Shown here one piece after another: positions 9,941-48,208 of a DNA stretch of 64,000 nt. Numbering within the stretch: the stretch's first letter is position 1; the number at the start of each line of letters is the position of its first letter. The notes below the pieces were generated by a model that was not told the origin of the DNA, made no database searches, and worked only from the letters and a program-made list of their open reading frames with translations. A program made the translations under genes and the position numbers. The DNA comes from Beroe forskalii (Eukaryota > Ctenophora > Nuda > Beroida > Beroidae): contig WFMF01000327.1 in the NCBI GenBank assembly GCA_011033025.1, positions 62,001 to 126,000 on the forward strand, given 5' to 3'.

Positions 9941-10700
9941 ATTGCTGATACAAGAAGAAACTAAAATGAGTTGTCTTTTCACACCATAGCGTATCACTTA
10001 CAATCACGTGACCGTCACGTGACCGCAATTATCCCGCTCCAGCCCAAGCCCTATCACGTGACTAGCACGTCGCAGCGTTCGTATCAGGTAAAACATGTGG
10101 AGTGCGTGTCACGTGATCGAATTTGTCATTCGATACGCTACGCAGCACTGATCGCATTCCGGGTGCAATGTTATTGTATGACACACCTAGCATGTAGGGA
10201 GGCACATGTAAAGCTATGTACATTATATACTGATTTTGATACACTATGATATAGGAATGTGGGTGTAATGTTATCCTACACGCAGCTTTTACCGCATGAA
10301 TAAGAGTTTCTCTGCAGCCAGGGTTTACGGAAACAGCTTTGCAACAGGGTACATTAATAATATACAAATACAATATACATTGAGCACAGTTTACATTGAA
10401 AGTTTCTCAGCCAGGGTTTACGGAAACAGTTTGCCGCAAGTGTACAATATATAGTATTTTCACGTATTTTTATTTCATTTTATTAACGTATAATATCCCC
10501 TTTTTTAGAAGTAAACAGGGGACTGTTTCCGGAATCAAAAGCTTTTAACCCTGCCAAGGTGGTCAGTAGCCCACAGTTACTTCTGTAATGTACTAAAGAT
10601 GTTCTATGTTTAAAACTGCCTCTTCTTGCGTATAGGTACATTCAATACAGTTCACAATGAATGCAATTTACATAAAAAGATTTAACACAGTGTACATTAT
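9941..10700 (-). mobile_element. Dispersed element copy A (inverted, interrupted)
   Basis: The reverse complement of 9941-10451 matches the right part of the copies at 12321-13161 and 36050-36891 almost base for base. Homology resumes at 10635 after a 183-bp insertion and fades near 10700. The element ends with ATTGCTGATACAAG and carries four CACGTG sites. A 103-codon frame is identical in all three copies, but an overlapping opposite frame is too. This points to recent copying rather than coding. No terminal inverted repeat or target duplication was found. Confidence 0.8.
10452..10634. mobile_element. 183-bp insertion inside copy A with TATA target duplication
   Basis: Copies B and C are continuous across this point, whereas copy A has 183 extra bases flanked by TATA at 10448-10451 and 10631-10634. 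No clear terminal inverted repeat is seen, so the class is unknown. Confidence 0.55.
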
Positions 10701-11639
10701 AAAAAATAATGTCCGTGAGGATTAAATGAAAGCAAACTATCCTTATTACAGAAAATCTAATATTCATAAGTCATGAGTTTTGAACGGATAATTATTATGG
10801 CATACTAAGTCGATTTTAACAGTTGATTGAACCTCCCAAAGGTCTATGTGTAATCTAAAAATTATATGGCATAATCCGTGCAAATTTCATGATTTATGAA
10901 TATTGTTCTCATAAGTCTAAAAGTAGAACACATATGGGACAAGATTTAACCTTTATTATTCACCATAAAGGTGGTGGGGTTATACCGGTTGAGTAAAACG
11001 TGTTATTTGCAGCTTTTTGTCGTTTTACCCCACCCTTTTTAGTATTATTACACACTTTTACCATGTTACTCCACTCTTACACCGTGTTATTTGTCATTAT
11101 TATGGTGTTATTCCACACTTGAGCCAAATTAATGAGCTGGCACACTGTTTACTTGACTGATCAGTTTCTACTTTCTATGGATCATTGCTCTACACTAAAT
11201 TAGTGATACGATAGAACGTTCTTTTCTGCTGAAAACTGTGCAAAATGCTAAAAAGAAAGCCTTTTAAGGCTTGAAGCTTTGTAAACTTGGTGAACGTTAC
11301 ACAACTCATAAGTGTGAAGTAACAGCATGTATTCAACTCAGCCTTCGGCTTCGGTGAATAATGTGATTTACGCCCACTCGTTTCGTTCTTGGCATAGGTA
11401 TTTATGTTGTTATTACACACTTTTGAGGTGTGGATTTGGAAATATTCTTCGAGGCGAAGCCGAGTGGAATATGGGAAATGCACACCAATATTACGAGCAA
11501 AAGCTACGATTCTGCTCCGTAAACTGGGTTTCTAACTCAACGAACGGGCCGTGATTCAAATAAATCATGTAACTTACTTATTCGTTGTGTAACTCTATAT
11601 TATTGCACTGCAAGAAATAGGATTATGCATTGTTTGAAG
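10701..11639. other. Gene-free stretch with degenerate repeats
   Basis: No gene is seen. 10970-11120 has repeated short words around TTTTACCCCAC and TTACACACTTT. 11335-11480 contains CTTCGGCTTCGG and GAGGCGAAGCCGAGTGGAA, which resemble the hairpin MITEs at 27676 and 32499. Confidence 0.5.
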
Positions 11640-12323
11640 TTATTTCTTCTTGAATTTGTTTCTGATCCTGATCACAGCGGGCTGCTGTGGCTCTTCTGAA
11701 CTTGGCCCAGGGTCTGTGTAGGCAGTAGATGGTCCTGGGGCATCAGCAGAACAAGAGGAGGTGGAGGGGTGTGGGGTGAATGGAGACTTGAATGACTTGT
11801 TGGGATTCCCTTTCGGTGCCATGAATAAGAGTTTACGTTTAGATCTTGGCTGAGGTGTTGTTGTGGGAAGTCTGAATGGAGAGGATAGAGGAGAGGAGTC
11901 AGGTGCCTTCACTTCATCCCGCGATGATTCTCCTAATGCCACAGCCAATGGTGAGCCATGACTTCTTTGCGCTTTCGGAGCCTTGTGTTTCCCCTTAGAG
12001 GATTGGATGACTTTGGAACTCGACGGACCAGGTTTGTTCTTAGTGTCTTTCCTGAGTTGCAAGATATTGAGTAATGGACTTAGTTCAATATCCTGCTGCT
12101 CTTTTGTCAGGGTGTAGGGAGGAGACTGGACAGTTGTTGTTGAGATGGTTACACTTTGACTCGCCGTCGGAAGGTATTTGTCCAGGGCTTTTTTCAGTTC
12201 TACCTTTTTTTTCTCTTCATGCCTAACGTTGATCGTTTCAGGATCCTGTGCGGCAGGGTCCTTTCGTTTCAGGTACTCAGTCTGCTTGATCACGCAGCGG
12301 TCTTCGTGCCTTAAACAAATTTA
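11640..12323 (-). CDS. Basic Ser/Pro-rich exon, unrecognised
   Basis: The minus-strand frame is open from a stop at 12321-12323 to TAA at 11640. It starts at a possible acceptor (TTTAAG) near 12310; no ATG lies at the front, so this is more likely a last exon than a whole gene. The first part (CLRHEDRCVIKQTEYLKRKD, then a KKKVELKKALDKY helix) is charged. The rest is rich in Ser, Pro, Lys and Arg, with SKRKL and KFKKK at the end, as in disordered nuclear proteins. I do not recognise the family. Dispersed element copy B begins where the frame ends, so the upstream exons may have been cut off by it. Confidence 0.45.
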
Positions 12324-13161
12324 ACGATAGTCAAATTGAAACCGAACTGCATATTGAGGCTACGCTGAGCCTACACATCCACAACACTGTAGACACGGAA
12401 CAAGAGAAATGGGGCACAATGGCAAGAACTTGGGGAGTTGGGAGATATTACGCATCACATGTGGACATGGCACGTCTCATGTAACGTTTCTTCTTTGCGT
12501 CCATAATTTCCACATACATATATTTTTTAATGTAGGTACATTGTGTATAATTTACTTTTTACATTGTCTTAAATGTAAGTGGTTTTCAATGTACATTGTA
12601 CTGTTTATAGTGTAAATTGCGTTCATTGTGAACTGTATTGAATGTACCTATATTGTACACTTGCTGCAAACTATTTCCGTAAACCCTGGCTGAGAAACTT
12701 TCAATGTAAACTGTGCTCAATGTATATTGTATTTGTATATTATTAATGTACCCTGTTGCAAAGCTGTTTCCGTAAACCCTGGCTGCAGAGAAACTCTTAT
12801 TCATGCGGTAAAAGCTGCGTGTAGGATAACATTACACCCACATTCCTATATTATAGTGTATCAAAATCAGTATATAATGTACATAGCTTTACATGTGCCT
12901 CCCTACATGCTAGGTGTGTCATACAATAACATTGCACCCGGAATGCGATCAGTGCTGCGTAGCGTATCGAATGACAAATTCGATCACGTGACACGCACTC
13001 CACATGTTTTACCTGATACGAACGCTGCGACGTGCTAGTCACGTGATAGGGCTTGGGCTGGAGCGGGATAATTGCGGTCACGTGACGGTCACGTGATTGT
13101 AAGTGATACGCTATGGTGTGAAAAGACAACTCATTTTAGTTTCTTCTTGTATCAGCAATTG
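12321..13161 (+). mobile_element. Dispersed element copy B (about 841 bp)
   Basis: It is near-identical to 36050-36891 from TTAACGATAGTC to TATCAGCAATT, and inverted relative to copy A. It includes the tandem words TGTACATTG and CCGTAAACCCTGGCTG, and a GC-richer end with four CACGTG sites. It is non-coding as far as I can see. Confidence 0.85.
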
Positions 13162-19799: not shown

Positions 19800-20926
19800 G
19801 TACGTGAAAACTTGATAAGTGAGGGAACTTACTAATTAGGTGATATTTAAGTAATTAATATAATAGTATTAAGTAATATTAAGTAATATAACAAACGTTG
19901 TTCATAATTGGACAGGTTGTCCTCGGCCGCAGAGAGCATGTCCTTTAAAGCTTCCTTCTCCTCGTGCAATGATCGGACATTGTCCTTTGTCTTCTCCAGC
20001 TTCACTTCACATGCCTGAACAAACAAGGCTTACCTACTTATCTGGGCACTCAATCGACTTTTAGATATTATATATTTTTCCTGATCCCAATCGCGTTTTT
20101 GTTTCACAAAAAGGCATTGAGAATAGGTCAGCAGAGATCGTGTATTTTAGGGGTTGTGTGTATACTACCTTTACGCGTACTGTTAAATCTGAAATAGGTG
20201 CTGCGCGCGACCGTGTGTCGTGGTGGTGGTGGTGGTGGTGGTGGTTGGTACATTTTCATGCATCTAACTGCTCCTTTATAATATCACTCGTATCAGAGTA
20301 GTGGCATCCTTTACATTGTGGGCTACAGCTAGCTAACAGCGTTGTAGGTATTTGAGTCCAATGCTCTGTTCATTCTGATGTTGAAATTAATTCTTTTTCA
20401 AAAATTCTACAATTCTTTAATCATTAAATCGAGACAATATCGATTTTCACGGAATTAATCAAATATTTGATTGGATTTCAATCACACAGTAATTTGGCCT
20501 TCTTTATTAAGGGGGGGGGGGGTTCACCCCTCACATTTTGGAGAACACGAATTTGAGATATGAGTTGGCCAGGATGGCCAGGGCGTGTACCAACATTTTG
20601 ACGGTGGTCTTGAGTCCATAGGTCCAATATTGCCCATGTGAGGCCTCGGTGCAAAAATGGCGTCCAAAAATCGAAATTTTTCCTGATGGAGAAAGAGCTT
20701 AGCTTTTGGTTGCATTCGATTCGTCTCGACGAGCTGATCATTTTAGTGTATTTGTTTGTCAAAATCGGATGAAAAATGGCCAAGTTATGCCCATGCGAAG
20801 CACGCGTGCCAAAGTGGCAGTCGGCCTATTTTGGGCCTTAAGATGGCCATTTTGGCCACATTTTTGGAGATATGAGCTTCAAACTTGTTTTGCCCATCAT
20901 TTAGGTCAAAATTGATGGGCAAATCA
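19800..20926. other. Gene-free stretch with a (GTG)n run and hairpin copy 3
   Basis: 20083-20131 is the third hairpin repeat (CGTTTTTGTTTCACAAAAAG). 20222-20246 is a GTG microsatellite. 20511-20921 is an unclassified repeat-like segment with a G-run at 20511 and phrases such as GAGATATGAG that recur in the element at 42.4 kb. No gene is seen. Confidence 0.5.
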
Positions 20927-23517
20927 CGCTGTGTTCTATTGCAATTATATGACATATTCTAACGCTGTGTTCTATTGCAATTATATGACATATTCTAACA
21001 CTGTGTTCTATTGCAATTATATGACATATTCTAACGCTGTGTTCTATTGCAATTATATGACATATTCTAACACTGTGTTCTATTGCAATTATATGACATA
21101 TTCTAACACTGTGTTCTATTGCAATTATATGACATATTCTAACGCTGTGTTCTATTGCAATTATATGACATATTCTAACGCTGTGTTCTATTCCAATTAT
21201 ATGACATATTCTAACGCTGTGTTCTATTGCAATTATATGACATATTCTAACGCTGTGTTCTATTGCAATTATATGACATATTCTAACGCTGTGTTCTATT
21301 GCAATTATATGACATATTCTAACGCTGTGTTCTATTGCAATTATATGACATATTCTAACGCTGTGTTCTATTGCAATTATATGACATATTCTAACGCTGT
21401 GTTCTATTGCAATTATATGACATATTCTAACGCTGTGTTCTATTGCAATTATATGACACATAACACTGTGTTCTATTGCAATTATATATATTCTAACGCT
21501 GTGTTCTATTATTATATGACATATTCTAACGCTGTGTTCTATTGCAATTATATGACATATTCTAACGCTGTGTTCTATTGCAATTATATGACATATTCTA
21601 ACGCTGTGTTCTATTGCAATTATATGACATATTCTAACACTGTGTTCTATTGCAATTATATGACATATTCTAACGCTGTGTTCTATTGCAATTATATGAC
21701 ATATTCTAACGCTGTGTTCTATTGCAATTATATGACATATTCTAACGCTGTGTTCTATTGCAATTATATGACATATTCTAACGCTGTGTTCTATTGCAAT
21801 TATATGACATATTCTAACGCTGTGTTCTATTGCAATTCTGACATATTCTGTGTGTTCTATTGCAATTATATGACATATTCTAACGCTGTGTTCTATTGCA
21901 ATTATATGACATATTCTAACGCTGTGTTCTATTGCAATTATATGACATATTCTAACGCTGTGTTCTATTGCAATTATATGACATATTCTAACGCTGTGTT
22001 CTATTGCAATTATATGACATATTCTAACGCTGTGTTCTATTGCAATTATATGACATATTCTAACGCTGTGTTCTATTGCAATTATATGACATATTCTAAC
22101 GCTGTGTTCTATTGCAATTATGACATATTCTAACGCTGTGTTCTATTGCAATGACATATTCTAACGCTGTATTGCAATTATATGACATATTGCAATTATA
22201 TGGCATATTCTAACGCTGTGTTCTATTGCAATTATATGACATATTCTAACACTGTGTTCTATTGCAATTATGTGACATATTCTAACGCTGTGTTCTATTG
22301 CAATTATATGACATATTCTAACGCTGTGTTCTGTTATATGACATATTCTAACGCTGTGTTCTATTGCAATTATATGACATATTCTAACGCTGTGTTCTAT
22401 TGCAATTATATGACATATTCTAACGCTGTGTTCTATTGCAATTATATGACATATTCTAACACTGTGTTCTATTGCAATTATATGACATATTCTAACGCTG
22501 TGTTCTATTGCAATTATATGACATATTCTAACGCTGTGTTCTATTGCAATTATATGACATATTCTAACACTGTGTTCTATTGCAATTATATGACATATTC
22601 TAACGCTGTGTTCTATTGCAATTATATGACATATTCTAACACTGTGTTCTATTGCAATTATATGACATATTCTAACGCTGTGTTCTATTGCAATTATATG
22701 ACATATTCTAACACTGTGTTCTATTGCAATTATATGACATATTCTAACGCTGTGTTCTATTGCAATTATATGACATATTCTAACACTGTGTTCTATTGCA
22801 ATTATATGACATATTCTAACGCTGTGTTCTATTGCAATTATATGACATATTCTAACGCTGTGTTCTATTGCAATTATATGACATATTCTAACACTGTGTT
22901 CTATTGCAATTATATGACATATTCTAACGCTGTGTTCTATATTGCAATTATATGACATATTCTAACACTGTGTTCTATTGCAATTATATGACATATTCTA
23001 ACGCTGTGTTCTATTGCAATTATATGACATATTCTAACGCTGTGTTCTATTGCAATTATATGACATATTCTAACGCTGTGTTCTATTGCAATTATATGAC
23101 ATATTCTAACACTGTGTTCTATTGCAATTATATGACATATTCTAACGTTGTGTTATATTGCAATTATATGGCATATTCTAACGCTGTGTTCTATTGCAAT
23201 TATATGACATATTCTAACACTGTGTTCTATTGCAATTATATGACATATTCTAACGCTGTGTTCTATTGCAATTATATGACATATTCTAACGCTGTGTTCT
23301 ATTGCAATTATATGACATATTCTAACGCTGTGTTCTATTGCAATTATATGACATATTCTAACGCTGTGTTCTATTGCAATTATATGACATATTCTAACGC
23401 TGTGTTCTATTGCAATTATATGACATATTCTAACACTGTGTTCTATTGCAATTATATGACATATTCTAACGCTGTGTTCTATATTACAATTATGTACATA
23501 TTCTAACACTGTGTTCT
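20927..23517 (+). repeat. 36-bp satellite (about 70 units)
   Basis: The unit is CTGTGTTCTATTGCAATT followed by ATATGACATATTCTAACG, with a frequent G/A change in the last base. Because 36 is divisible by three and the unit lacks stops, long frames appear on both strands (repeating FYCNYMTYSNAV on plus, IIAIEHSVRICH on minus). I treat these as artefacts. Length changes are seen at about 21460-21510, 21836, 22110-22190, 22330, 22940 and 23480. Confidence 0.97.
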
Positions 23518-23940
23518 TTACCCTTTGTACCGGGGTTTTCGTGCCTTAAAAAAATTTAAATTTAAAATTTATCCAATTTTAAATTTTGTGGCTTGAGGAT
23601 AATATGAACATTAAAATAAAGTTTATAAACTATATTTTTTATGTGATGAACTCTAATAGCAATGCGTAGGTACTGACATATTACAGCCCTATTTGATGAA
23701 ATTTAATAAAAACGCATTAGATTCGTAATCAGCTGATTTTTAGTAAGTCAAATAGGTATTATAATGCCAGGAAATTATGGGAATCTACCTCTGCAAATCA
23801 TTGGCTGAAGAGAAAGTTCTTGAACACCAAGGACACTTCTTTTTACTGGGGCATTCAGCCAAATGTCTGAAAAGTTGTAAAATTATAGGTGTTTATTTTC
23901 AGCACCGGTATTACCTTCGGTTGCTGTAAGACATGACCTC
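23518..23940. other. AT-rich DNA, nothing recognised
   Basis: Between the 36-bp satellite and the telomere-like block I see no gene, repeat or signal that I can name. Confidence 0.4.
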
Positions 23941-23950
23941 TTCTCTATGT

Positions 23951-24068
23951 AATTAGGGTTTGGGTAAGGGTTAGGGTTTGGGTTTGGGTAAGGGTTTGGG
24001 TTAGGGTTTGGGTTAGGGTTTGGGTTAGCGTTACTGTTTGGGTTAGGGTTTGCGTTAGGTTTGGGCGA
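23951..24068 (+). repeat. Degenerate telomere-like repeat (TTAGGG/TTTGGG)
   Basis: Alternating GGGTTAGGGTTTGGG and GGGTAAGGG words run for about 115 bases. The orientation is TTAGGG on plus. Confidence 0.85.
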
Positions 24069-24071
24069 AAG

Positions 24072-24550
24072 GCTTACCAGTTCGCTTACGGTTTGGGTTG
24101 GTGAACAATCGTTCGATGCGAACTAGTTTGGCAGTTTGCAGTGGAATTTTTATAGTTGATGAAGTTCGCCGCGAACTAGTTCGCCGCGAACTTAGAAAAA
24201 ACTAGTTCGTGGCGAACTAGTTCGCGGCGAACTAGTCCGCCGCGAACTTGTTCGCCACAACTAGTTCTGTAGCGAATGATTGTTCGCCGGCGAACAACGT
24301 TCCGCCAACCAAAATTTTAAGTTCGCTGCGAACTAGTTCGCGGCGAACTAGTTCGCCAGTTTGCGGCGAACTCCGCGCGGTTCGCCTGAGTTCGCTCGAG
24401 CCTGCCCGGAGTTCGCGAACGTCTGGCGAACTTTCGGCGAACTTCAGCGGAGTTCGCCAAGGAAAAAATTGGCGAACTGTTCGGCGAACGTTGGCGAACT
24501 CGCGCGGAGTTCGCGCGGGTTCGCCTGAGTTCGCCTGGCTCCGCGCGGAA
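24072..24550. repeat. Cluster of GTTCGC/GCGAAC palindromes
   Basis: GTTCGC and GCGAAC occur roughly thirty times in 480 bases, often paired as GCGAACTAGTTCGC or TTCGCGGCGAA. CG content is much higher than in the flanks. The 112-codon frame here comes from the repeats. It could be a highly palindromic MITE or the end of a larger element. Confidence 0.75.
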
Positions 24551-24625
24551 CCAAAGTTCTTATTATGCCTTATTTTGAGTAATTGAGTATGCTATGCCTA
24601 TAATTGTAATTAAGCTTTGAATGTC

Positions 24626-25909
24626 TTACTGAGTCTTGCGACGAGAAGATTTATAGATCTTGCAACAGGTGGGGCAGGTGAATCCGACATCACGGTGTTT
24701 TCTCTTGTGGGCATCAACCTGAAAAACACAGTCTTTTTAATCGCTCATAAAATAATTTGAGATCTTAAAAACAATGCTAAGCTTGTACCTATTTTTGGGA
24801 ATTAAATTGCAGAATATCTTACCGAATTTTTTGGTCCCGTATAATCGCATCCAGGATGGTCACATTTCACTTCTGAAATGATGATTGATACACTGAGTTT
24901 AAAACTGGATTTAATTTCACAACACAAAATGGTTAACTTTATTTATTTTCAAATAGCCAAAAAATCGAGTTGATTTATGTAGGTAATAACAGATGCAGAT
25001 CCATACATCAGGATTAACGATATGTAGGTAATAACTAATATTATTATTTTTGCTCGTTGATCGATGGCAACACGTCAAAGATGTAAGCGAAAAGGGTTAT
25101 CTAAAATATAGAATATAATTACGGGCATCCATAAAGGACGTCCGCAATGAGGGGGAGAGAGGAGTCTAGAATGGCCCAAATTTTGAGGACGTCCTTCATT
25201 GAATATCTAACTTAGTACAACTTTACAAGCGCATCTAGCACTTTTTGGAGTAAGTTTTGAGTTGAGGGTAGCCGTTAGGCCAAGGGCTGTTTATAAAGAA
25301 CTTAGAAGATTTAAGGATGAGAAGGAGAGGGCGGGATGCACGACATCTCACGACACATTATTTTTCTGTACTGGCAGTTGGAAATAGCCATAACCCTAAC
25401 AGTACGCAATGCCTTATCTTTGAAGTTGAACCGGGCCCAAATCCATAACCTAACCGTTTCTTTAAACTACAATAAAATTACGAGGCAAAGTGTCGGTAGA
25501 TTACTGACTAAACTTTAGACTGCTACCTTATTATCCTCGTGAATCTATAGGGCAATATAAGTAGTGCCCCAATAATGATGTTATATTTATGTGACTGGAA
25601 TATAGGTTTTAATCTCACCTTTTGAAGAAGGGCAGTTGCTGTGCTCCTTCAGTCCTCGTTCAGACCCGAAAGCTTTCTTACACTGATCTGAAGAATGCGT
25701 AGTATCGTGACGCTCGTTAGCAATTTATAAGCAGTAAGTACTCGTCATGTAGGCATATGTCTCAACAATGCTTAAATGCTTACGTGTCTGTATACTTACG
25801 TACCACAGAAATATTGCGGCTTTTGATGGGCCTGATACATGTGCATGTTGAAGTACCTTTGTCCTCCCCAAATTCGCAATCCACATTCTTTACAAACAGA
25901 GTCGGCCAT
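24626..25909 (-). CDS. Small C2H2 zinc-finger protein, 4 exons, 105 aa
   Basis: Exons in transcription order: 25909-25804, 25687-25619, 24872-24823, 24718-24626 (stop TAA). All have GT-AG ends and phases that fit (1, 1, 0). The protein starts MADSVCKECG. Finger 1 is C6-x2-C9-x13-H23-x4-H28. Finger 2 (FCDQCKKAFGSERGLKEH) is split by an intron at its first Cys and ends H-x2-C. Finger 3 is C62-x4-C67-x11-H79-x3-H83, followed by a half finger (FTCPTCCKIYKSS). DNA or RNA binding is inferred. It lies 300 bases downstream of the transposase gene on the same strand, so it could be a third transposon gene, or a host gene. Each exon is under 110 bases. Confidence 0.75.
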
Positions 25910-26209
25910 TGTTTATCACTGCACTTTCTAGCTACCTATAACAGATTTACGTGTTACGTACGTGTAATAATCAAGTTGATAAAGTTGTAATCCATGAAAT
26001 GCGATTTGCAGAAGCTGACCAGATTTCTATCTATTATTAATTTTATTTCTCGTACATACTGTATTGCAATGCTTTGAAAAACAATCAATAATCATGATGA
26101 TATTGAAGCATTATTTTATTATTGATAAATTAGTATAGGTATTTAAATTGCTTCAGGTGTCTTCAAGTTCATCACAATACAATTAAAGTGCATGTAACTA
26201 AGTTTATCA
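25910..26209. other. Spacer between zinc-finger and transposase genes
   Basis: AT-rich. TTTATT at about 26112 is AATAAA on the minus strand and could end the transposase transcript. Nothing else is seen. Confidence 0.4.
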
Positions 26210-28643
26210 TCAATCTGTGACTGCATTTTGGTCATTCAGATGTGAGGGTCCAGGTTGGTCACTTCCTGTTGCCCTCATCTTAGGCCGCATCTCTTTGAGG
26301 TGAGCTGGTTGTAAGTTGGTCAAGAAGCCGCAGACGTGTAAAAAGTGGGTTGCCCAATACATCATTTTTTGGGGCTTTTCCGCGAGACATCTCCAATCTT
26401 TCAGGTGACTTATGACCCGCTCAACATGAACCCTAACTCTGCTAAGCTTCCTGATAGTTTCACATTCCTCCTTCGTAAATTGCTGTTTTCCTCTCAGACC
26501 CGGAGGCATGTTCACAGTCACTCCTGCGGCCATAAAATTCGTCAAATGTTCTCATTCAGATAATTTTACTTATCAAGAGCGTGAGCAAATGCTGTGTCAT
26601 TTAAGATCTTTCAAAAAAAAATTCAAATGCAATGCTTCCTTTAAATTGTCTCCATTTTCCAAAAATTTTTCCGGATGCTCCGCTCCCCACTCCCCAGCCC
26701 CCACCAGATGCTGATCTGGCCCTGGAATCCGCTGGGTGTTAAATGCTGTCTTACTTGCCAACAACCCCCCCCCCACTTTCCCAGCCAAGATCAACCAATG
26801 ATATGCTAATAATATACACCTCTAGCTTTAACTATGATATATGCCATATATAGCCATATTTTAATATTTTATCTTTTACCTGGTGGACATAGATCCTGTA
26901 TCAGAAATCCCTTATCTACGAGAATTCCATCCCCCGCAGTGAGCTGTTTTAACACGCCACACTTAGTCACCACTTCTTTGTCGGAAACACTTCCCGGGTA
27001 AGGATCAGACAAATATACTATCGCACAGTTTGGTGAAATCCCAAGTAGTACCTTCTTCGTGTGTCTACCTTTAAAATAAGGTGACGAGCTCAATATGTAT
27101 CTAACTATCTAAATTTGAAATTACATTTTACGTTTTGGGTCGGCAAAATTTAAAATTGACCGATGCTGAATATCTGCAGAATGATTTCAAATCGTACTAG
27201 ACTTTTAGATCTTGATCTCGTAAGTCGTGACTGCTTTATCTTTATTGGTTTGATTAACATTGAGAATTCAGTATTTGTTTGATAGGCATTATATTACTCA
27301 CTCTTATAGTTGCTGTAAAAGAGAGCCTGTTCCAAAATCCCGTCAGGTTTCGCAACTTCAATCTGAAATAATCCATATTATTATATTTTGAAAAACTATT
27401 ATTGACTGCTGAAAAATACGTTTAAAATTAACTGTGACATGAATTGTTAGCCTTCACAATATTTTCAGAAAATTTTCACCTCAAAACAATCAAGAATCAC
27501 GCGTATATTCTGGAACTCTTTGAAAGAGTCCGGTAGAAATTCTTTTGTCTTTGCTTGCGAAGGTATCTTGTTGTAGGATTCGAGCATCATTAGACACTCG
27601 TATATCAGTAACAACCACGACTGCCAAATATTTGCCACTGTCTCATCACTTATCTGCAAATAAGGCATAAGCTATATTAGCCAATTTTGAGGGTACTTGT
27701 AGGCGTGCAATAATAAGTAATATTGCACTCCTCACATTGGCTAATACACTAAGAGCATGGCAAATGGTCATGACGCTAATAAAATTATTGCACTCGGCTT
27801 CGCCTCGTGCAATAATTTGGTATTGTCGCACTCGGCCTGCTCCTCGTGCGACAATACAAATTATTGCACTCGGCTACGCCTCGTGCAATAATTTCTATTA
27901 GCGCATTCCCAGCCATGCTCTAAGCGTATAATATTTCATCCTAATTCTTATAACCATTGAAGGTGAAAAGCCGAAAAATTATAGATTTATAACAACTTTT
28001 CTGTTCCAAACGAAAATCTTTTCTCATTTATCAAGGGATAAATACCAGTCTTAATTTACCACACTTACATCGAAAATGTATCCTATGACATTGTTCGCTA
28101 ATCCTTTTCTCAACTTGAACAATGTTATAAACAGTTGGTCTAGGTATGAAATCTTTGACGGCCGCCACCCTTTAACATAATCAAGTCGCTCAAATTTATC
28201 TGTGCTATCTTCAAGCCATTTTAGAAGAGCAAATATAACTCGTGAGTTGCTCATCCCAGTGAGTGATAAGACCTGAATAATTCATTATTTTCATATTATT
28301 TCATTTTTATATCATTCACTGTTAATGGAAGCGACTCAAATTCAAACACTACTCAGCAAAACTTGATATAGATAGTCCTTATAACTTCATTACATAGTCT
28401 GTGCTGAAAGAATATATTCAGAACTGTACTAACCAGATTATCATTGTTTGATATATTCTCCATTGTTAAACGTGGGCTTCGGCTGTACTTGAGAGTTCTC
28501 ACTTCTACCTGGGACTCGTTTAACTTCTTTTGTAAGTCCCTGACCTCTTGCTGCAACTGACTGTTTTGCTGTTGAAGGCGTTTATTCTCCTCTTCCAACG
28601 CGCGTATCCTCTCCAAGCATACTGTCAACTGACTTCCATCCAT
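26210..28643 (-). CDS. DDE transposase (DDE_Tnp_4; Harbinger/ISL2EU-like), 6 exons, 383 aa
   Basis: Exons in order: 28643-28434, 28272-28069, 27653-27480, 27362-27302, 27068-26880, 26523-26210 (stop TGA). Frames join at every junction. The first ATG follows an in-frame stop. Residues 10-52 form a coiled coil (leucine/glutamine rich, EEENKRLQQQNSQLQQE). Next comes the helical domain typical of this family (MSNSRVIFALLKWLED, LFKLRKGLANNVIGYIFD, ETVANIWQSW). The catalytic core shows D193 (VILDCFE), conserved SDKEV at 245-249, D268 (LVDKGF) and E314 (VHVERV), so the DDE triad is complete. It should cut and join its own transposon ends. It follows the SWIM-YqaJ gene by 363 bases on the same strand. 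A MITE sits in intron 2. It looks intact. Confidence 0.93.
27676..27932 (+). mobile_element. Hairpin-rich MITE, copy 1 (transposase intron 2)
   Basis: It is built from consecutive hairpins: ATTAGCCAAT with ATTGGCTAAT, AGAGCATGGC with GCCATGCTCT, and TTATTGCACTCGGCTTCG with its complement. It matches 32499-32680 in reverse orientation, but has about 75 extra bases from duplication of the inner hairpin (GTCGCACTCGGCC variant). Confidence 0.85.
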
Positions 28644-29006
28644 TTTCTACAATAAGAAGTGACAGTGCTACAGTGGTGGCATGAGTACTCGAGCAGTATT
28701 TTTGACACAGAATATCTAAAATCAAGCGGAAGGAATGAGTTTGACAAAATACTACTAAAATGTAGCTCACACCTGTGATTACGATGAAAATTACCCCACA
28801 TTAAAATGTAGTCGTTAAATAAATTTACTGATACTCTGATAAAAATACTGGTTATTTCATACAAATAAAATTTAAAGTAGATATATAACTTATTTTCTAG
28901 GAAAAAAGAGGTCAGTCCGACCAGAGTTAGTTTTTAAGCTTATTTGGTCCAAGATCCAAATTCAGCATGATTAACAGATTCATTGGGTCATATATTTGGG
29001 CCTACC

Positions 29007-32000
29007 CTAAGTCAATTGTTTCAATACTGGAAGGATGCATCCGATATAAAAACTCTTCAATATTCTGAGTTTGTGTGACCATGATTCATTCCTTGACACC
29101 CTAATAGTGAACGCAGGAGGCTGTGGCGTCCATATGTAAAGGAATCCCATGTCACGTTGTGTGGCGTAAATCTGGCCTTGGATCTGAAATTAATTAATGG
29201 AATTGGCAATTATAGAAGCCCGGAAATAGGGGAGACATTAATTCTCCCCCCTTTCCCGGGATCACGTAAGATAACAGCAACACCCGTATCGAGGCATGGG
29301 ATCACCTCTTGCCCAATTAAGTATGGGTGGGCCCGAATTAGCTAAGGGAGCCCAAGTTAGTATGGGGGAGCCAAAGTTAGTATGGGGGAGTCCGAGTTAG
29401 TATGGGAGAGCCCAAGTTAGTATGGGGGAGCCAAATTTAGTATGGGGGAGTCCGAGTTAGTATGGGAGAGCCCAAGTTAGTATGGGGGAGCCAAAGTTAG
29501 TACGGGGGAGTCCGTTGTGTGGCGTAAATCTGGCCTTGGATCTGAAATTAATTAATGGAATTGGCAATTATAGAAGCCTGGAAATAGGGGAGACATTAAT
29601 TCTCCCCCCTTTCCCGGGATCACGTAAGATAACAGCAACACCCGTATCGAGGCATGGGATCACCTCTTGCCCAATTAAGTATGGGTGGGCCTGAATTAGC
29701 TAAGGGAGCCCAAGTTAGTATGGGGAGCCAAAGTTAGTATGGGGGAGTCCGAGTTAGTATGGGAGAGCCCAAGTTAGTATGGGGGAGCCAAAGTTAGTAT
29801 GGGGGAGTCCGAGTTAGTATGGGAGAGCCCAAGTTAGTATGGGGGAGCCAAAGTTAGTACGGGGGAGTCCGAGTTAGTATGGGGGAGTCCGAGTTAGAAT
29901 GGGGGAGCCCAAGTTAGTATGGGTGAACAGGAGCCCAAGCTAATGTAGTAATGTGAAGCCCAGGATAAGGTGGAGCCAGGTATGGTAGAGCTTAAAGGGT
30001 GAGCCTGGTAGGTGCGAGCCCCTGTATCGGGGTTATGCCTGTATTGGGTTTAGCTTGGTATGGTGAAGACTGAAGCCCGGCAATGAAGTAAGTCTGGGAT
30101 GAGCGAGATAGATACCGTGTATAAATTGGGAGATTACCTGATCGTAGTATGGTGATGATTCCTTTAGGATAGGCGTATTTCTATCGATATACGTAATGTG
30201 CTTGTAACACTTGAGATTGTAGGGGAATTTTGTGACAGTCTTCAACTCCTTTTCTGCTTCAGCTGCCAACGAACTTTTTCTCAGTGCATAAGGGCATTTG
30301 ATTTCTACGACAGCGTCACCCTGTCGTATTGGCATATTTTATCTATCACTTTGCATTTACAACATTTTGTGAAAAGTTATATTTCGAGTGATTGCCGCAC
30401 TATATAGTGACACCGCACTATATAGTGACAAGCTTTTCAGTGCCAAAATACCCCAGTCACTATATAGTGCGTAAAAACACTTTATAGTGTCAGCGCACTA
30501 TATAGTGACATGTTCTCTCCAATAATAGCCTACATTTGAGTATCACATTGCATGCCTTTATTGGCCTACTTATTAAAGGCAACGACCCCATTAGGTCTTA
30601 TGTCTACCGTGAGCTGTAAGCATGGTATCGTGAGTTATAAAGTCGATTGAAGAGAAGAGCCCGGCCAGAAGTCCACGACCAGGTCAACGCAACTAGGTCA
30701 ACGCACTGGGACCACCATCTGATCTACGGCTACCCCTGGATATCAAACATGATCGAAGTTCGAAACGACGGAAGTTCGAGTTGTTTGAGCTTCCGTCGTT
30801 AAAACTTTCGTTAGATCACCTGTGTACGCAAGGCCAAGGGGAGGGAGGGAGGCAGGAGGAGGAAAAAGTGGAGGAGGAGAGTCAGATGTCCCTAGCCATC
30901 AGTGTTGAGGATGCTCTGAATGTGCTGGAAGGTTGTCTGTATATTAGGCATTTTGAGAATGCGATACTTTGCCTCGGGGGTGAACCTCCCATGTACACAG
31001 AAACTAGCCGTAACGAGATTCTTAACACGATTTGGACTGATCAAGTGCGGTAAGGCAGTTATGAGAGAACCTTTTGCATGTTGTTTGGGACCAGTGTGAT
31101 AGCATGAGATCTACCACAGTACGATGAGACACCATAATCACTCTCCGAATGTAATGTAATTGCATGTGGTGCGATATATAACGTGTACCCTATCACTTGC
31201 AGTTGCATAGGATGCAATGTGATCCACCGAGATGCCGTGCCGTTAATGAGGCCATGTCACTATATAGTGCGCTTTGCCACTTTCCCTTCAAGGTGATTCA
31301 GGACACTCAATAACATATTATGGTCTACTTTTTGTCACTAAATAGTGCGTAAAAACACTTTATAGTGTCAGCGCACTATACAGTGACATGGTGTCACTAT
31401 ATAGTGCGGTGTCACTATATAGTGCGATTACCATTTCGAGTTTGATAAGTTGATATGACTTTCAAAACGTTTCATAATGAGAAATTTTATCGGGGATATT
31501 AGTTCAACTTCTGAATTTCCAATATTAGAAAGCATTAAACGACTTACTGCCTCTGTCAACCCATCTGGTGTTGCTCCCAAATATCCATCTGGAAACAAAA
31601 AAAGCCCTGAATCAAGCACCCTAATAGTGTGCTCCTTGGAGAAGTCTTCAAGTGCCCTCTTTTCGTGGTCTCTCCCCCACTGACGTGCCCCCATCGATTC
31701 TACGAGAAGTAAAACAAGGTTTCAATTATTATTATACTAATATATAATACGTATTAGGTATACGCTATATTCAAAAAAAAACTACTAGAATAAACCGAAG
31801 TCTATATCAAGGTATCTAATATTAGATTATCCCTCAGTTTCATGTTACAATAAAAATGCACCTGGCTTCATTAATGAATATTCGTGAGTAACTCAAACCT
31901 GCGTTTGCTACGTCTGAAGAGGAAATCAAATTTTTGATAGTTCCACAAACTTCATTTCTCTCAGCGGCTTCAACGCATTTCTTGAGCTGGAAAGACTTAA

Positions 32001-34822
32001 ATTAAAGTTTAAATATCTAAATATTAATCATTTGTTTACTTCCCTGCCGAATAATTCAACCCTGTGAAAAGACAATTAGTTTCAAAAACAAATTTATATC
32101 GCAGTATTATAAAATCCAATAATTATAAGGGATATACGAATGAAACGATAATTTCTTACGGTTGAGGGCAGGTAGTGCAACACGGTGTTGAAATTTGACG
32201 ATGTCAATCTGAGTGACTTCAAACGACAGAATAGGGGATTGTTGAACTGGCCGATTGTGTCTTTGCTCAGCTGTTCATTCCGTGACGTGTCGTACTTCAT
32301 TGCTTTACGGAATTCATCTCCATTCAAATGAATGTACTTAGATAACAGCAAATCGTCCCATGGTGTTGCAATTGTTGCTGGTTCTTGAGCGGTGATGAAA
32401 TGTAGTGCAGCCCCAGGTTCTGCAATTTTCAAACTGAAATATTGTTCCGCATTTAATCTCAAAAGTCTTCAATAAATAATATATTTAAAATACGATGCAT
32501 TATACGCTTAGAGCATGGCTGGGAATGCGCTAATAGAAATTATTGCACGAGGCGAAGCCGAGTGCAATAATTCTATTAGCGTCATGACCATTTGTCATGC
32601 TCTAAGTGTATTAGCCAATGTGAGGAGTGCAATATTACAAATTATTGCTCGCCTGCAAGTACCCTAAAAATTGGCTAATTGCAATTACAGCACCCTTTGC
32701 CTGTCCACAAGAGTAGCAGGACTGTAGCAACGAGACGCCAAACTACTTAGTTTAGACTTTATAACTACACACTAGAAGTTAATAACCTTGATTCCAATGT
32801 ACCTAATAGTTATCCGAAAAATTGCAGTGCAAAGTTCTATCATCTATTTTTCCCTGTTTAGAGGATTACCTGTTAGCAAATGTTGCAAACGCTTCATTGG
32901 TTCTCATCTTGATTGGGCCAGTCTCCTCGTCGTTATGAGATAAACAACTATGGGTGTTGTGATATAATCAAACTATCAAAATAACGGCGAAAAAAGCCTT
33001 TCATGTTATAATACTCTCCGAGCGCTCTAGCAAATTTACACCCTCTCACTTTGAGAGCTAGTGACGAACTATCTTGTGCAGCCAAATTTCTCGGCTCCAT
33101 TGGTTCGATACTTCGCCTCGTCGGTGGTCGCTCAGCTCTCAAAGTGAGAAAATATTAATTTGTTATAGCAGAGATTAAGATTACTAACTTAAAAATAAAA
33201 AATTAATATGGTTGAAAAACATTGTTTATTGTCTTACGCATATTATATGGTTTAAAAACAAAATCCAGAAAATGAAGATGCAAATAATACTATCCGCTTA
33301 GCAACAATCGTTATTAATACCTTGCCAGGGGTCTTTTTCGAAGTACATACTCATTCACTGGTTTAAATTCTTTCAATTTTGCTGATTTCGGACGAGCCAT
33401 CCAGGACTGTGGTTCTAAAGAATAAAGAAACTTGGTTAAATTTTACCTACTAGATTAATCAAGCAATTGAATCCCTCATTGACAATGGCGATAAGTTGTC
33501 CACATTCCACAATGAATTCATTATCTCATTATTGGCAATTACAAAATCATTGATCGAAGATTGATCCAAATTATCAGCATTGATGGATCCACAATCGCAA
33601 GTTCTTGCAAATTGTCGCCTATATATGTCTGACGGTCGCCAATGGCAGTCGTGAGCCATTATCGTCAGGGAGTGAGTGAAATTGTCGACATTGTATCATT
33701 CACAATGAATATTGGATATGTTGCCGCAAATATTTAATGAACCGTCGTTGTCGACAAAAGATGATTGCGGTGGCATATTTTGAAATAAAATTAATAACAC
33801 TTTTACTATGAAATTAAAAAATAGAAAATCTTACCACTCGTTTTTGAAAGATTGTCCATGGCGTATAAGAAAAGAGCGCCAATATGATGACATGGCTTCT
33901 CCCCTGGACCAACGGGGCACTCACATGTCCTTTCCAGGATCGATTCCATTTTCTTGTTCAGCTTGATCTAGGTAGCAAGGCAGTTTACTCCACGACAGTT
34001 TACCCCGTCACAGGGTAAACTGTCACCCACCCTTTAGCTAGGCATAAGGATTGTGCAAGACTGTTAATAGGTTAATGTTATTATCGACACGGGGTGTCAC
34101 ACAATAAGAAAATTTGAAAATATGTATAATTGATCATTCAATATTGAATAATAAAATCTAAAAAAGCAGCATTGAGAGCAGTACTGAGTTTTAGATACCT
34201 TTACTCTGTAAGCTTTATCTTTCATACTGGCTTGTACTAGTCCCTCAAGTGTCATGTCTCTAAAGGTAAACTGAAGTACATGCCCTGATTCCGATGCCTG
34301 AAAGGCAGTCCATTTAATTATATAATGGCCAATGTTAAATCGCAATCCCAGTCTGCTCAAGCGTAAAAAACTAGAATGGGAGTCCGACATTTCACCTTGA
34401 CCTACGAAAATTCACCTCACGGCACTTCATCTCTCTGCCCTTACTCCAACCATAACCCTAACCTTACCCAAAGCATTCACTCTAACCTTGCCCTAACCCT
34501 AACCCAGAACCTAACTCTAATCTTAGATAGTTGGAGGTCAAATATTACTTATGGGATAAAGTGTCGTGAGGTGAATTGTCGTAGGTGAAATTTCCGGTCC
34601 CCCTGACCCAGACCCTCACCACAGTCGTTAGTTGGAAAGTTCATTCCCAATCTAAGTATCTAAAAAAATATAAAATAGTACAAACTACAATATAACTAAC
34701 TAACTACTAGAAGGTACCTGATATGACTTTTTAAGATATTTCACATTGTCTTGAAAAGTAGTGGTAAACAGGGCCCCCAACTTCGATTTAACACTACCCT
34801 CAGTCTGATCATCTCCTGACAT
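29007..34822 (-). CDS. SWIM zinc finger plus YqaJ-type nuclease, 10 exons, about 509 aa
   Basis: Exons in order: 34822-34718, 34659-34199 (with a 211-bp MITE inside), 33967-33835, 33414-33321, 32947-32870, 32433-32160, 31986-31899, 31699-31548, 30320-30138, 29183-29007 (stop TAG). Without the MITE all phases fit. Residues 105-117 read QASMKDKAYRVK. The SWIM finger is C132-x-C134-x8-C143-x-H145. The link region has FNNPLFCRLKSLRLTSSNF. The YqaJ core (PD-(D/E)xK fold) keeps E352 (GRDHE), D385 (GATPDG), E396-I-K398 (VVEIKCPY), Y449 and Q453/Q455. It should be a 5'-3' exonuclease or recombinase-like nuclease. As I recall, ISL2EU transposons pair such a protein with a transposase. The alternative is a host gene family. 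Confidence 0.88.
29157..29935 (+). repeat. 357-bp tandem duplication plus GTTAGTATGGGGGAG array
   Basis: GTTGTGTGGCGTAAATCTGG starts at 29157 and again at 29514. Each copy is followed by an array of about 20-bp units (AAGTTAGTATGGGGGAGCC and variants) to about 29935. The duplicated segment includes the first 27 bases of the last exon of the SWIM-YqaJ gene and its splice acceptor. Confidence 0.93.
29936..30137. other. Rest of YqaJ intron 9
   Basis: A decaying edge of the GTTAGTATGG array (GAGCCCAAGCT, GAAGCCC words). Nothing else. Confidence 0.4.
30390..31432 (+). mobile_element. Non-autonomous DNA transposon, CACTATATAGTG family, copy 2
   Basis: It is flanked by a perfect 9-bp direct repeat, ATTTCGAGT, at 30381-30389 and 31433-31441. 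It starts GATTGCCGCACTATATAG and ends TATAGTGCGATTACC. It aligns with 18768-19799 throughout. A 90-codon plus-strand frame (30781-31053, containing EEEKVEEESQ and LEGCLYIRHFENAILCLGG) is partly recognisable in copy 1 in broken form. It may be a transposase relic or captured exon. The element sits in intron 8 of the SWIM-YqaJ gene. Confidence 0.92.
32499..32680 (-). mobile_element. Hairpin-rich MITE, copy 2 (YqaJ intron 5)
   Basis: Reverse orientation of 27676-27932, without its inner duplication. TTATTGCACGAGGCGAAGCC and its complement form the central hairpin. It lies in an intron, so the gene is not interrupted. Confidence 0.85.
33054..33149. mobile_element. 96-bp hairpin MITE (YqaJ intron 4)
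   Basis: Arms TCTCACTTTGAGAGCT and AGCTCTCAAAGTGAGA are perfect complements around a 64-bp centre. A minus-strand frame across it is a shadow. Confidence 0.75.
34386..34596. mobile_element. 211-bp MITE inserted in YqaJ exon 2
   Basis: The ends are inverted repeats: ACATTTCACCTTGACCTACG on the left against CGTAGGTGAAATTTCCG on the right, and CACCTCACGGCACTT against AAGTGTCGTGAGGTG. GTCC flanks both sides (34382-34385, 34597-34600). The centre holds CCCTAACC telomere-like words. Removing the element and one GTCC restores an open frame across the exon. Confidence 0.82.
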
Positions 34823-34839
34823 GGCGATATAACCTGCGC

Positions 34840-35310
34840 TGTGCAATTTTGCTCAATTGAAGCTTAACAGATTGATTGAATAATAAATTTTCAATCCCAT
34901 ACGATACATTTAAGATGATCGTTTGCTCTAAGTTGAGCCCAGTTGTGCTCATTTGCACCCAGTTGCGCTCAGATAAACCAAAATCTACTTTAGTACACTC
35001 AAACTGAACAAAATTGAACGCAATTGAACGCAGTAATGAGCGTTTGAGGGCAAACTGAGCGCAATTAATGGTAAATAAAATTAAATTCTGCACAAATGAT
35101 CGCAAATGAACGCCAAATAGAAAAAAGCCGACTTAGCGGATAGCCCGATAGACATGTTTTGCGCCCAGTAAACTGAGTGCAAATATGCAAATGGACGCAA
35201 TATAAGATATTTTGCACCCATTTGCGCGTAGCCTAATTCTGGTTCTAAGCGAGTAAGCGTAAATGAGCGCAAATTCGTCCAATTGACCGCACGTCCCATT
35301 GAGCTCAACT
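34840..35310. promoter_or_regulatory. Array of TGAGCGCAA/TTGCGCTCA-like words upstream of the YqaJ gene
   Basis: About fourteen loose copies of a 10-base word (TTGAACGCAA, TGAGCGCAAT, TTGCGCTCAG, ATGGACGCAA, TTGCACCCA) occur in both orientations within 470 bases just 5' of the start codon. Such arrays are typical of transposase-binding subterminal repeats or promoter sites; the role is inferred. Confidence 0.5.
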
Positions 35311-36049
35311 ATCATCTTACCTCACTTTTCCTATCTAGTGTAAAGATAAATTAATTAACTACTGAATAAGTTGAACTTTTGGAAACATTTACGTAACTAA
35401 CACGTATAATTAATTAAAAGTATAATGTTTACATACAGATTAATAAAAAACGATGAAATTTAATTTTTAAGACAAGAACTACAGCTAACGTACGTTAAAG
35501 GGACAAAACAGAAAATGAAAGATTGTTCTATGGTAATACAGTAGGTAAACAGTAAAGCAGTAATACACACAGTATCCCGATGTACGCACGTACATGCTAA
35601 TTAGGTATTGGGTCTATCACTACTGCTACTTTTATTGAACAAACATTCCAATTCTCTTAGGTCACTGAGTTTACCGCTAAATTTGTACTTCTGTGCGAGA
35701 TGACGGTATTTTCCCCATTTAAGAAATTTCATTATTCGACATAAAGAACTGAAAACTAATCGACACAAACAAACGTAAAAAAGTAAAAAGAAGGATAAAC
35801 TGAAGCTATGGAATTATGAATACTGTATGGTTAAATTGACTTGAAACTCTATCCAATTCATGTAGTGGATACAAGCTAATTGTATTAACACTTGAATAAT
35901 AATCTTCCGGTGGAAGATTATTATTATTAATATTATAACAGGCAAATAGTAATACACCAGCAACATCAATTAATGATCGATAACTTGTTAACAACTCATA
36001 GTAATATACGTTATGCAGTTACGAACAATACAGCATAAAATTGAAACGA
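35311..36049. other. AT-rich DNA, no gene recognised
   Basis: There is one small perfect hairpin at about 35895-35929 (AATAATCTTCC with GGAAGATTATT). If the transposon has an upstream terminal repeat it could lie here, but I could not identify one. Confidence 0.4.
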
Positions 36050-36891
36050 TTAACGATAGTCAAATTGAAACCGAACTGCATATTGAGGCTACGCTGAGCC
36101 TACACATCCACAACACTGTAGACACGGAACAAGAGAAATGGGGCACAATGGCAAGAACTTGGGGAGTTGGGAGATATTACGCATCACATGTGGACATGTG
36201 GCACGTCTCATGTAACGTTTCTTCTTTGCGTCCATAATTTCCACATACATATATTTTTAATGTAGGTACATTGTGTATAATTTACTTTTTTACATTGTCT
36301 TAAATGTAAGTGGTTTTCAATGTACATTGTACTGTTTATAGTGTAAATTGCGTTCATTGTGAACTGTATTGAATGTACCTATATTGTACACTTGCTGCAA
36401 ACTATTTCCGTAAACCCTGGCTGAGAAACTTTCAATGTAAACTGTGCTCAATGTATATTGTATTTGTATATTATTAATGTACCCTGTTGCAAAGCTGTTT
36501 CCGTAAACCCTGGCTGCAGAGAAACTCTTATTCATGCGGTAAAAGCTGCGTGTAGGATAACATTACACCCACATTCCTATATTATAGTGTATCAAAATCA
36601 GTATATAATGTACATAGCTTTACATGTGCCTCCCTACATGCTAGGTGTGTCATACAATAACATTGCACCCGGAATGCGATCAGTGCTGCGTAGCGTATCG
36701 AATGACAAATTCGATCACGTGACACGCACTCCACATGTTTTACCTGATACGAACGCTGCGACGTGCTAGTCACGTGATAGGGCTTGGGCTGGAGCGGGAT
36801 AATTGCGGTCACGTGACGGTCACGTGATTGTAAGTGATACGCTATGGTGTGAAAAGACAACTCATTTTAGTTTCTTCTTGTATCAGCAATT
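36050..36891 (+). mobile_element. Dispersed element copy C (about 842 bp)
   Basis: It matches 12321-13161 over the full length with only a few differences, from TTAACGATAGTC to TATCAGCAATT. The flanks differ from those of copy B, which fixes both ends. It carries four CACGTG sites near its right end. Confidence 0.88.
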
Positions 36892-38298: not shown

Positions 38299-38395
38299 GT
38301 CACGTGACAGGGTCACGTGACCCAGTCACGTGGTAGTAGCCTACCAGAAGGTTCGTCACGTGGTCACCACGTGACCACTAGGTGGCTACCACATG
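38299..38395. promoter_or_regulatory. Cluster of five CACGTG E-boxes
   Basis: Five CACGTG sites lie in about 90 bases: GTCACGTGAC, GTCACGTGAC, GTCACGTGGT, GTCACGTGGT and CCACGTGACC. It lies just outside the 3.67-kb DNA element. bHLH-ZIP factors (MITF/TFE, Myc/Max, USF) bind this word; a role here is unproven. Confidence 0.5.
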
Positions 38396-44175: not shown

Positions 44176-44771
44176 TAAAGACTATCACGTGACCTAGAAG
44201 GGAGGGGACAGAGTTGGCAAAAAAGTTATATTCTGGAACCAGCTTCTTATAAAGACTATCACGTGACCTAGAAGGGAGGGGGACAGAGTTGCCAAAAAAG
44301 TTATATTCTGGAACCAGCTTCTTATAAAGACTATCACGTGACCTAGAAGGGAGGGGACAGAGTTGGCAAAAAAGTTATATTCTGGAACCAGCTTGAGAAT
44401 AAAGAGAACGACAAAGTAAGATGTCAGAAATTTCATAACGAAATAATGACACTAAGTTACAAAGCAACGTTTCAATATGATCAACATACCATGCTAAGGG
44501 TGGAACCAGCTTCTTATAAAGACTATCACGTGACCTAGAAGGGAGGGACAGAGTTGGCAAAAAAGTTATATTCTGGAACCAGCTTCTTATAAAGACTATC
44601 ACGTGACCTAGAAGGGAGGAGGACGGAGTTGGCAAAAAAGTTATATTCTGGAACCAGCTTCTTATAAAGACTATCACGTGACCTAGAAGGGAGGGGACAG
44701 AGTTGGCAAAAAAGTTATATTCTGGAACCAGCTTCTTATAAAGACTATCACGTGACCTAGAAGGGAGGGGG
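44176..44771 (+). repeat. 74-bp tandem repeat, cluster 1
   Basis: The unit runs GAACCAGCTTCTTATAAAGA, CTATCACGTGACCTAGAAGG, then a G/A-rich part and GCAAAAAAGTTATATTCTG. Seven units are split by about 110 bases of other DNA (44395-44505). Each unit carries one CACGTG. Frames with FIRSWFQNITFL are artefacts. Confidence 0.95.
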
Positions 44772-46320: not shown

Positions 46321-46785
46321 AGGGGGACAGAGTTGCCAAAAAAGTTATAGTGGTTAGTAGTAGTGTACAGTGGTTAGTAGATAAAAATATTCTGGAACCA
46401 GCTTCTTATAAAGACTATCACGTGACCTAGAAGGGAGGGAAGGAGGGAGGACAGAGTTGGCAAAAAAGTTATATTCTGGAACCAGCTTCTTATAAAGACT
46501 ATCACGTGACCTAGAAGGGAGGGAAGGAGGGAGGACAGAGTTGGCAAAAAAGTTATATTCTGGAACCAGCTTCTTATAAAGACTATCACGTGACCTAGAA
46601 GGGAGGGGGACAGAGTTGCCAAAAAAGTTATATTCTGGAACCAGCTTCTTATAAAGACTATCACGTGACCTAGAAGGGAGGGGGACAGAGTTGCCAAAAA
46701 AGTTATATTCTGGAACCAGCTTCTTATAAAGACTATCACGTGACCTAGAAGGGAGGGGGACAGAGTTGGCAAAAAAGTTATACAT
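46321..46785 (+). repeat. 74-bp tandem repeat, cluster 2
   Basis: About five units, starting with a variant that contains GTGGTTAGTAGTAGTGTACA. Two units have an expanded GGGAGGGAAGGAGGGAGGA segment. It ends at a sharp boundary near 46785. Confidence 0.95.
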
Positions 46786-47986: not shown

Positions 47987-48148
47987 GTAATTCACCCTGC
48001 CTGTAGTCAGTAGTCACACATACAAACTCGGTGATCTGAAAATGAGCGGGGCGAGCGGGGCTTGAAGGTTGTGGGTTCAAGCCCCGCTCGCCCCGCTCAT
48101 TTTCAGATCACCGAGTTTGTATGTGTGACTACAGGCAGGGTGAATTAC
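47987..48148. repeat. 162-bp near-perfect palindrome with 9-base spacer
   Basis: The left arm is 47987-48066 and the right arm 48076-48148. The arms match throughout except for a 7-base GTAGTCA repeat in the left one. The spacer is GGTTGTGGG. The spacer and right arm together read GTGGGTTCAAGCCCCGC, like the T-arm/B-box of a tRNA or tRNA-derived SINE. Confidence 0.92.
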
Positions 48149-48208
48149 AAATAAAACCAAGCATTGGCATGTAATTTGCATAGGTATCATGTAGTTAATA
48201 GTGTAGTA

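Follow-up and report, generated by a model that had tools for sequence, protein, structure and literature searches.

We analysed a 64,000-nt stretch of the genome of the ctenophore Beroe forskalii (GenBank assembly GCA_011033025.1, 216 Mb, contig WFMF01000327.1, forward strand; C389:62001-126000, hereafter the window), in which the genes for a zinc-finger protein, a DDE transposase and a SWIM-YqaJ nuclease lie close together on the minus strand and form a candidate transposon (Table 1). An earlier reading of these letters without database searches (the sequence-only reading) had claimed three minus-strand multi-exon genes, and all three are present, with exons and GT/AG splice sites that recur in a second copy of the element on contig C547. 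The gaps of 363 and 300 bp that it gave for the two intergenic intervals are likewise right (29006-28644 and 26209-25910, respectively). Our gene models were drawn by hand from splice sites, with exon borders picked to preserve the frame. In these models, the introns of the window nuclease and transposase are GT-AG and their phases are consistent with one frame, a consistency that is partly built in, since the frame guided the choice of exon borders. Independent support comes from the C547 copy, in which five of five transposase introns recur with GT/AG sites, together with eight of eight mappable donors and eight of eight mappable acceptors of the nine nuclease introns (exon 6 being unmapped end to end). 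Exons can be aligned between the two copies, as can a minority of the introns and a portion of the transposase-nuclease gap, whereas most introns cannot.

The transposase matched the Pfam domains DDE_Tnp_4 (1.2e-37) and HTH_Tnp_4 (3e-11), both over the curated cut-offs, when searched as a 358-aa model. That model, in which exon 1 ends at 28509 and which is 25 residues short, was rejected: C547 has no GT there and does have a donor where the longer exon 1 of the sequence-only reading ends, so the longer exon stands. With exon 1 at 28643-28434 and a 383-aa protein, the catalytic residues proposed earlier (D193, D268 and E314) are numbered exactly. Pfam detected no THAP domain in the transposase, in nine open reading frames (ORFs) between or beyond the genes, or in the ORF at 24235-24591. 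Similarly, no unspliced THAP-like C2CH pattern occurred in the six frames of both large copies, a search that an intron-split THAP would escape. There was also no Pfam match to Myb/SANT in any of the three proteins, and one scan of viral contigs returned no relatives of the transposase. Transposase-like exons at 35-54% identity were found in ~3-kb loci on C170, C247, C800, C614, C469, C358 and C500, and these look like other families. Five of these contigs (C170, C247, C800, C614 and C469; L010-L015) carry another DDE transposase family, whose ~50% identical exon sits among long runs of short repeats resembling those of the nuclease intron at 29346-29923. Furthermore, two near-identical inverted short elements (143 nt at 94% and 74 nt at 99%) lie in opposite directions at 27676-27932, in a transposase intron, and at 32499-32679, in a nuclease intron.

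For the nuclease, Pfam reported YqaJ (1.1e-7) and SWIM (1.8e-4), both over the curated cut-offs, and TIGR03033 matched at 1.5e-5, under that model's own cut-off. An alignment to lambda exonuclease from the PDB placed the motifs wG..E, PDGL and vEiKCP in register, but it is weak, with an E-value of only 0.16. The catalytic residues named by the sequence-only reading are present; its numbering (E352, D385 and E396-x-K398) is a constant 39 above that of our model, in which they are E313, D346 and E357-x-K359. No conserved coding sequence was detected in C547 just upstream of exon 1 that would lengthen the N-terminus. An alternative exon at 34659 was rejected as no frame-keeping donor was found for it, and exon 1 joins 34297 in phase. 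Scanning the whole genome with PF09588 gave no match, presumably because a six-frame domain search needs longer exons than these; with protein queries they were recovered. The start of the last nuclease exon, including its acceptor, is copied by a 213-bp duplication (29155-29367 and 29513-29725), which creates a decoy acceptor at ~29541 whose use would truncate the nuclease. Intron 1 contains a short repeat with ~35-bp inverted ends (34397-34602), related copies of which occur elsewhere in C547 and in C1. A separate gene at C252:281061-285599 (L050/L046) comprises, by eye, two tandem YqaJ-like units that are 27-43% identical to the nuclease, and could be either a host gene or part of another element.

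The zinc-finger gene had been thought to end at 24626, which proved wrong: the stop there sits inside the splice donor CTCA/GTAAGA, so the gene runs past this point. In C547, exon 5 is followed by a last exon of ~240 codons, and the resulting 371-aa protein has several C2H2-type fingers with weak Pfam matches (best 8.4e-6, 26.5 bits versus a cut-off of 27) and a tail that is basic and of low complexity. The window retains the last exon only at 12309-11640, as part of another, short copy of the element. Diverged zinc-finger exons were also observed beside end-like sequence on C269 and C281, where the surrounding 3-4 kb contained neither transposase nor nuclease.

Table 1. Features of the element in the window (positions in the window; TIR, terminal inverted repeat).
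Feature	Position	Strand	Basis or remark
SWIM-YqaJ nuclease gene, 10 exons, 470 aa	29007..34822	-	Pfam YqaJ and SWIM
Nuclease exons 1-5	34822-34718, 34297-34199, 33967-33838, 33414-33321, 32947-32870	-	
Nuclease exons 6-10	32466-32160, 31986-31899, 31699-31548, 30320-30138, 29183-29007	-	
DDE transposase gene, 6 exons, 383 aa	26210..28643	-	Pfam; exon 1 end set by C547
Transposase exons	28643-28434, 28272-28069, 27653-27480, 27362-27302, 27068-26880, 26523-26210	-	
Zinc-finger gene exons 1-4	25909-25804, 25687-25619, 24872-24823, 24718-24630	-	Splice phases; all four conserved in C547
Zinc-finger exon 5, C2H2-type finger HLAECPSKKKCPWCSRTFSSANDLQ	23789..23866	-	Conserved in C547
Zinc-finger last exon (in short copy A), 222 codons and stop	11640..12309	-	Frame and acceptor same in C547 607322-608079
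Copy A, 3,215-bp deletion derivative joining a left end, the last zinc-finger exon and a right end	9943..13157		Facing inverted arms 9940-10451/12649-13160
Right end of copy A	12321..13157	-	Matches 36050-36888, 2-bp length difference
Copy B, large, without a left end; genes for transposase and nuclease are open	23537..36888	-	Exon start ~23537
Left TIR of copy A, starts TGCTGATACAAGAAG after A/AT (9940-9942)	9943..10451	+	Inverted-repeat pairing
Right TIR of copy B, ends CTTGTATCAGCA, then AT/T (36889-36891)	36380..36888	-	

The element reaches further than the 24626-35310 assigned to it earlier: its right end lies at 36888, and the nearest left end, at 9943, is that of a short copy. The window thus holds two copies. 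Only the first few bases of the last zinc-finger exon remain in copy B, which breaks off there beside a 36-bp minisatellite (20926-23517). Copy A has an internal junction at ~12321, where both sides share TTAA, and over its final 605 bp (12556-13160) it does not differ from 36287-36891 of copy B. The copy at C547:604899-622217 (17,319 bp) contains the zinc-finger, transposase and nuclease genes between both ends, in the same order and orientation. Its TIRs agree over 243 bp at 99.6% and 89 bp at 100% (at least 332 bp), with a ~2-kb insertion interrupting the right one.

Both termini, facing each other, were found in eight copies (C547, C1 twice, C980, C55, C159, C371 and copy A of the window). 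Apart from C547, these seven copies and one with a damaged end span 2.4-5.5 kb, and six of the eight contain gene remnants. For example, the copy at C1:1417397-1421637 retains nuclease exons 1-2 and the last zinc-finger exon, those at C1:1511439-1513895, C55 and C980 retain parts of the last zinc-finger exon, and a short copy on C350 matches 33026-36321 at 99% and adds an inverted right end. The protein-query searches gave no gene match in the two-ended copies on C159 and C371, whose interiors themselves are unread. The transposase copies of the family that we detected (window and C547) both adjoin the YqaJ gene, a count taken from the best-scored genome candidates rather than a full census.

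In the window, the arm at 9940-10451 pairs with 36380-36891 over 512 bp with 3 mismatches, and also with 12649-13160. The terminal sequence GCTGATACAAG occurs at 9944 and, reversed, at 13146 and 36877, and nowhere else in the window. Across the genome, the window repeat gave 48 matches (85 candidates, best 40 scored) and a 71-bp end of a sister subfamily gave 35. From 26 short end pieces, 24 yielded 25 ends, to which the window added three, making a sample of 28; the C55 left and C350 right pieces lack a visible terminus and therefore fall outside it. The family termini read A/AT/TGCTGATAC...GTATCAGCA/AT/T. AATT stands directly outside GCTGATAC in 25 of the 28 ends, and in 24 of 26 when a head-to-head pair (L105) is left out. 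Among distinct 10-bp flanks, the figure is 19 of 21 with that pair and 18 of 20 without it. Beyond AATT, there was no clear base preference except for C at -1 (12 of 21 flanks). In the L105 pair (C469:1204740-1204870), two family termini stand head to head, separated by only a few bases, as though an element had inserted at another's end, and its flank occurs with both ATTT and AATT.

One repeat flank is common to ten places, seven with an element end and three, all on C592, without an element. The unoccupied C592 sites read ...CATTAT AATT CTATTATTG with AATT present once; since they have AATT but no element, AATT on that side is part of the target. The palindromic octamer TCACGTGA, which occurs four times per TIR, was considered as a binding site of the element and rejected, as it is abundant outside it: the window contains 34 occurrences versus 0.78 expected, mostly in other repeats. 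Examples are found at 10004-10116, 38300-38320 and 44185-49367, including unrelated tandem repeats.

All three proteins appear to have been maintained by purifying selection, as judged by the ratio of non-synonymous to synonymous substitution rates (dN/dS) between the window and C547. For the transposase, 335 of 375 residues are identical, with a dN/dS of 0.115 (bootstrap 0.08-0.16) and a dS of 0.51, and for the nuclease 391 of 456 (0.154, bootstrap 0.10-0.22; dS 0.51). Zinc-finger exons 1-5 share 91 of 127 residues (0.318, bootstrap 0.17-0.56; dS 0.51), and the last exon, compared between copy A and C547, 166 of 222 (0.240, bootstrap 0.16-0.37; dS 0.64).

Taken together, inverted ends, an AATT target, a second three-gene copy, short derivatives and purifying selection on all three proteins make it very probable that the three genes are the coding part of one cut-and-paste DNA transposon of the PHIS superfamily, ISL2EU-like with a third gene. 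The family is real, well-delimited and degraded. This bears out the multi-protein transposon proposed by the sequence-only reading, and neither of the two outcomes it had named as refuting turned up, namely transposase copies lacking the YqaJ gene or a YqaJ gene at a host locus without transposon ends. Rather, the C547 YqaJ gene lies between paired ends, and the window has kept the right end and lost the left. The question it raised of whether the zinc-finger gene travels along can be answered for both copies (n = 2), where this gene stands beside both enzymes and is under purifying selection.

Several observations weigh against this interpretation. No intact copy was seen: the window copy is without its left end and last zinc-finger exon, and in C547 the right repeat is interrupted and the nuclease is broken: its SWIM exon contains an in-frame TGA, and we could not join the start of exon 6 in phase, so the C547 copy has probably lost its autonomy. 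The transposase was found in two copies only, and three-gene co-travel thus rests on n = 2. The pairwise dN/dS values may reflect selection in ancestors common to both copies, and the roles of the nuclease and the zinc-finger protein are ones we infer from sequence. Three ends depart from AATT: TATT (C547 left), ATAT (C371 left) and ATTT (L105). For the empty site on C592, a search allowing up to two mismatches did not recover the opposite junction, which leaves the site only half proven. Finally, of the terminal repeats and 2-bp duplication anticipated by the sequence-only reading, the repeats and an AT within AATT were found, whereas the occupied sequence alone reads the same for an AT duplication and for a duplication-free insertion at AA/TT.

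One alternative is that a two-gene ISL2EU element (transposase and YqaJ) captured a host zinc-finger gene as a passenger without a role in transposition. Published ISL2EU elements have two ORFs (PMC4482050 and PMC9179366), and constraint on the zinc-finger gene is weaker than on the enzymes (dN/dS of 0.32 and 0.24 versus 0.12 and 0.15). It is nevertheless under purifying selection, with a dS like theirs, and the diverged copies on C269 and C281 adjoin related end sequence, so that the gene seems to have been in the family for a long time; we consider a passenger rather unlikely. Copies A and B could also derive from a single element (9943-36888) that an 11-kb insertion later divided, as their breakpoints nearly coincide at the beginning of the last zinc-finger exon. 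However, copy A has its own pair of facing ends with AATT at each, its right end has its own flank, and where the two exon starts overlap their bases are not the same; we hold a split element to be improbable.

The heavy intron load and long gene spans are host-like and would suit host genes, or a domesticated locus, lying by chance between unrelated repeats. Against this, the same three genes stand in the same order at a second place between the same kind of termini, flanks differ at most of the ends read, and the short derivatives contain parts of the same genes; we rejected the host-gene explanation on account of the paired ends in C547 and hold it to be very improbable. There is almost no room for a Kolobok-type element with a lambda-exonuclease-like nuclease (KolobokE): here the transposase is of the DDE_Tnp_4 and HTH_Tnp_4 type, the nuclease has a gene of its own and insertion is into AATT rather than TTAA.

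How might the three proteins of such a transposon work together? DDE transposases cut and join DNA, and YqaJ proteins are relatives of lambda exonuclease that resect DNA 5' to 3'. The transposase would cut at the ends, insert at AATT and leave a 2-bp AT duplication. The zinc-finger protein, supplying fingers where the transposase has no THAP domain, may bind the ends or recruit the transposase, and the SWIM-YqaJ protein, with its metal and lysine residues in place, could resect DNA ends and so direct how the excision gap is repaired or the element re-inserted. Short derivatives such as copy A would then result when gap repair halts early. We tentatively suggest, as a possibility short of an even chance, that the zinc-finger protein is an obligatory third component replacing end recognition by THAP, and that this split machine of cutter, end binder and resecting exonuclease was retained while the family diversified in this genome. 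The element, whose ends and target are defined and whose three proteins are under selection, offers a concrete system for testing which proteins are needed, and could show whether DNA recognition can shift from a transposase domain to a separate gene. It also bears on the standing question of why ISL2EU transposons carry a YqaJ exonuclease.

Elsewhere in the window, ORFs near the element encode SRCR and TNFR/ephrin-receptor-like domains, and long telomere-like AACCCT/GTTAGG arrays in opposite orientations lie within the contig (50783-54099). ORFs resembling, by eye, a reverse-transcriptase fragment stand between two 37-bp tandem arrays (60159-63103). No Rfam family matched the window at the gathering threshold.

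We compared the element with known transposons on the basis of partial texts of the cited papers. No published three-gene ISL2EU element appeared among the best matches listed from open-licence PMC texts, a search with Repbase Reports outside its scope, and absence from print is thus not established. The word SWIM is absent from the available parts of PMC4482050, PMC9179366 and PMC12730594.

Other transposons share single features with the element. PIF/Harbinger also has a related DDE transposase and a second, separately encoded protein, but this is a Myb/SANT protein and its duplications are TWA, neither of which was found here, where the target is AATT. Spy, another PHIS group, resembles it in the AT-rich palindromic target and the HTH and DDE transposase; however, Spy has one ORF and an AAATTT target, whereas here there are three genes and C prevails just outside AATT (12 of 21 flanks). 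KolobokE likewise carries a lambda-exonuclease-like nuclease, in a different transposase superfamily with a TTAA target, according to the excerpt of PMC9587614.

The closest match is ISL2EU. The available text of Han et al. 2015 (PMC4482050) describes AT duplications within A/AT/T, mostly DDE+HTH+THAP transposases and a YqaJ protein, in agreement with the pairing given in the sequence-only reading, and calls the role of the additional ORF unknown; the corresponding part of a teleost paper (PMC9179366) gives the transposase an HTH or THAP domain. Here too there is a DDE transposase with HTH, a separate YqaJ-domain protein, AT within AATT and long TIRs (512 bp in the window and at least 332 bp in C547; 6-259 bp in Han et al.). 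Differences from that description are the third gene, compared with two ORFs in most autonomous members, the lack of a detected THAP domain, which most members' transposases have, TIRs starting with TG (TGCTGATAC) instead of the usual but not obligatory GG, and a length of 17,319 bp in C547 (including the ~2-kb insertion) compared with an average of ~4.8 kb. Since transposase type, YqaJ and target agree while THAP, GG, size and gene number depart, we label the element an ISL2EU-like three-gene variant, a provisional assignment made by feature comparison.

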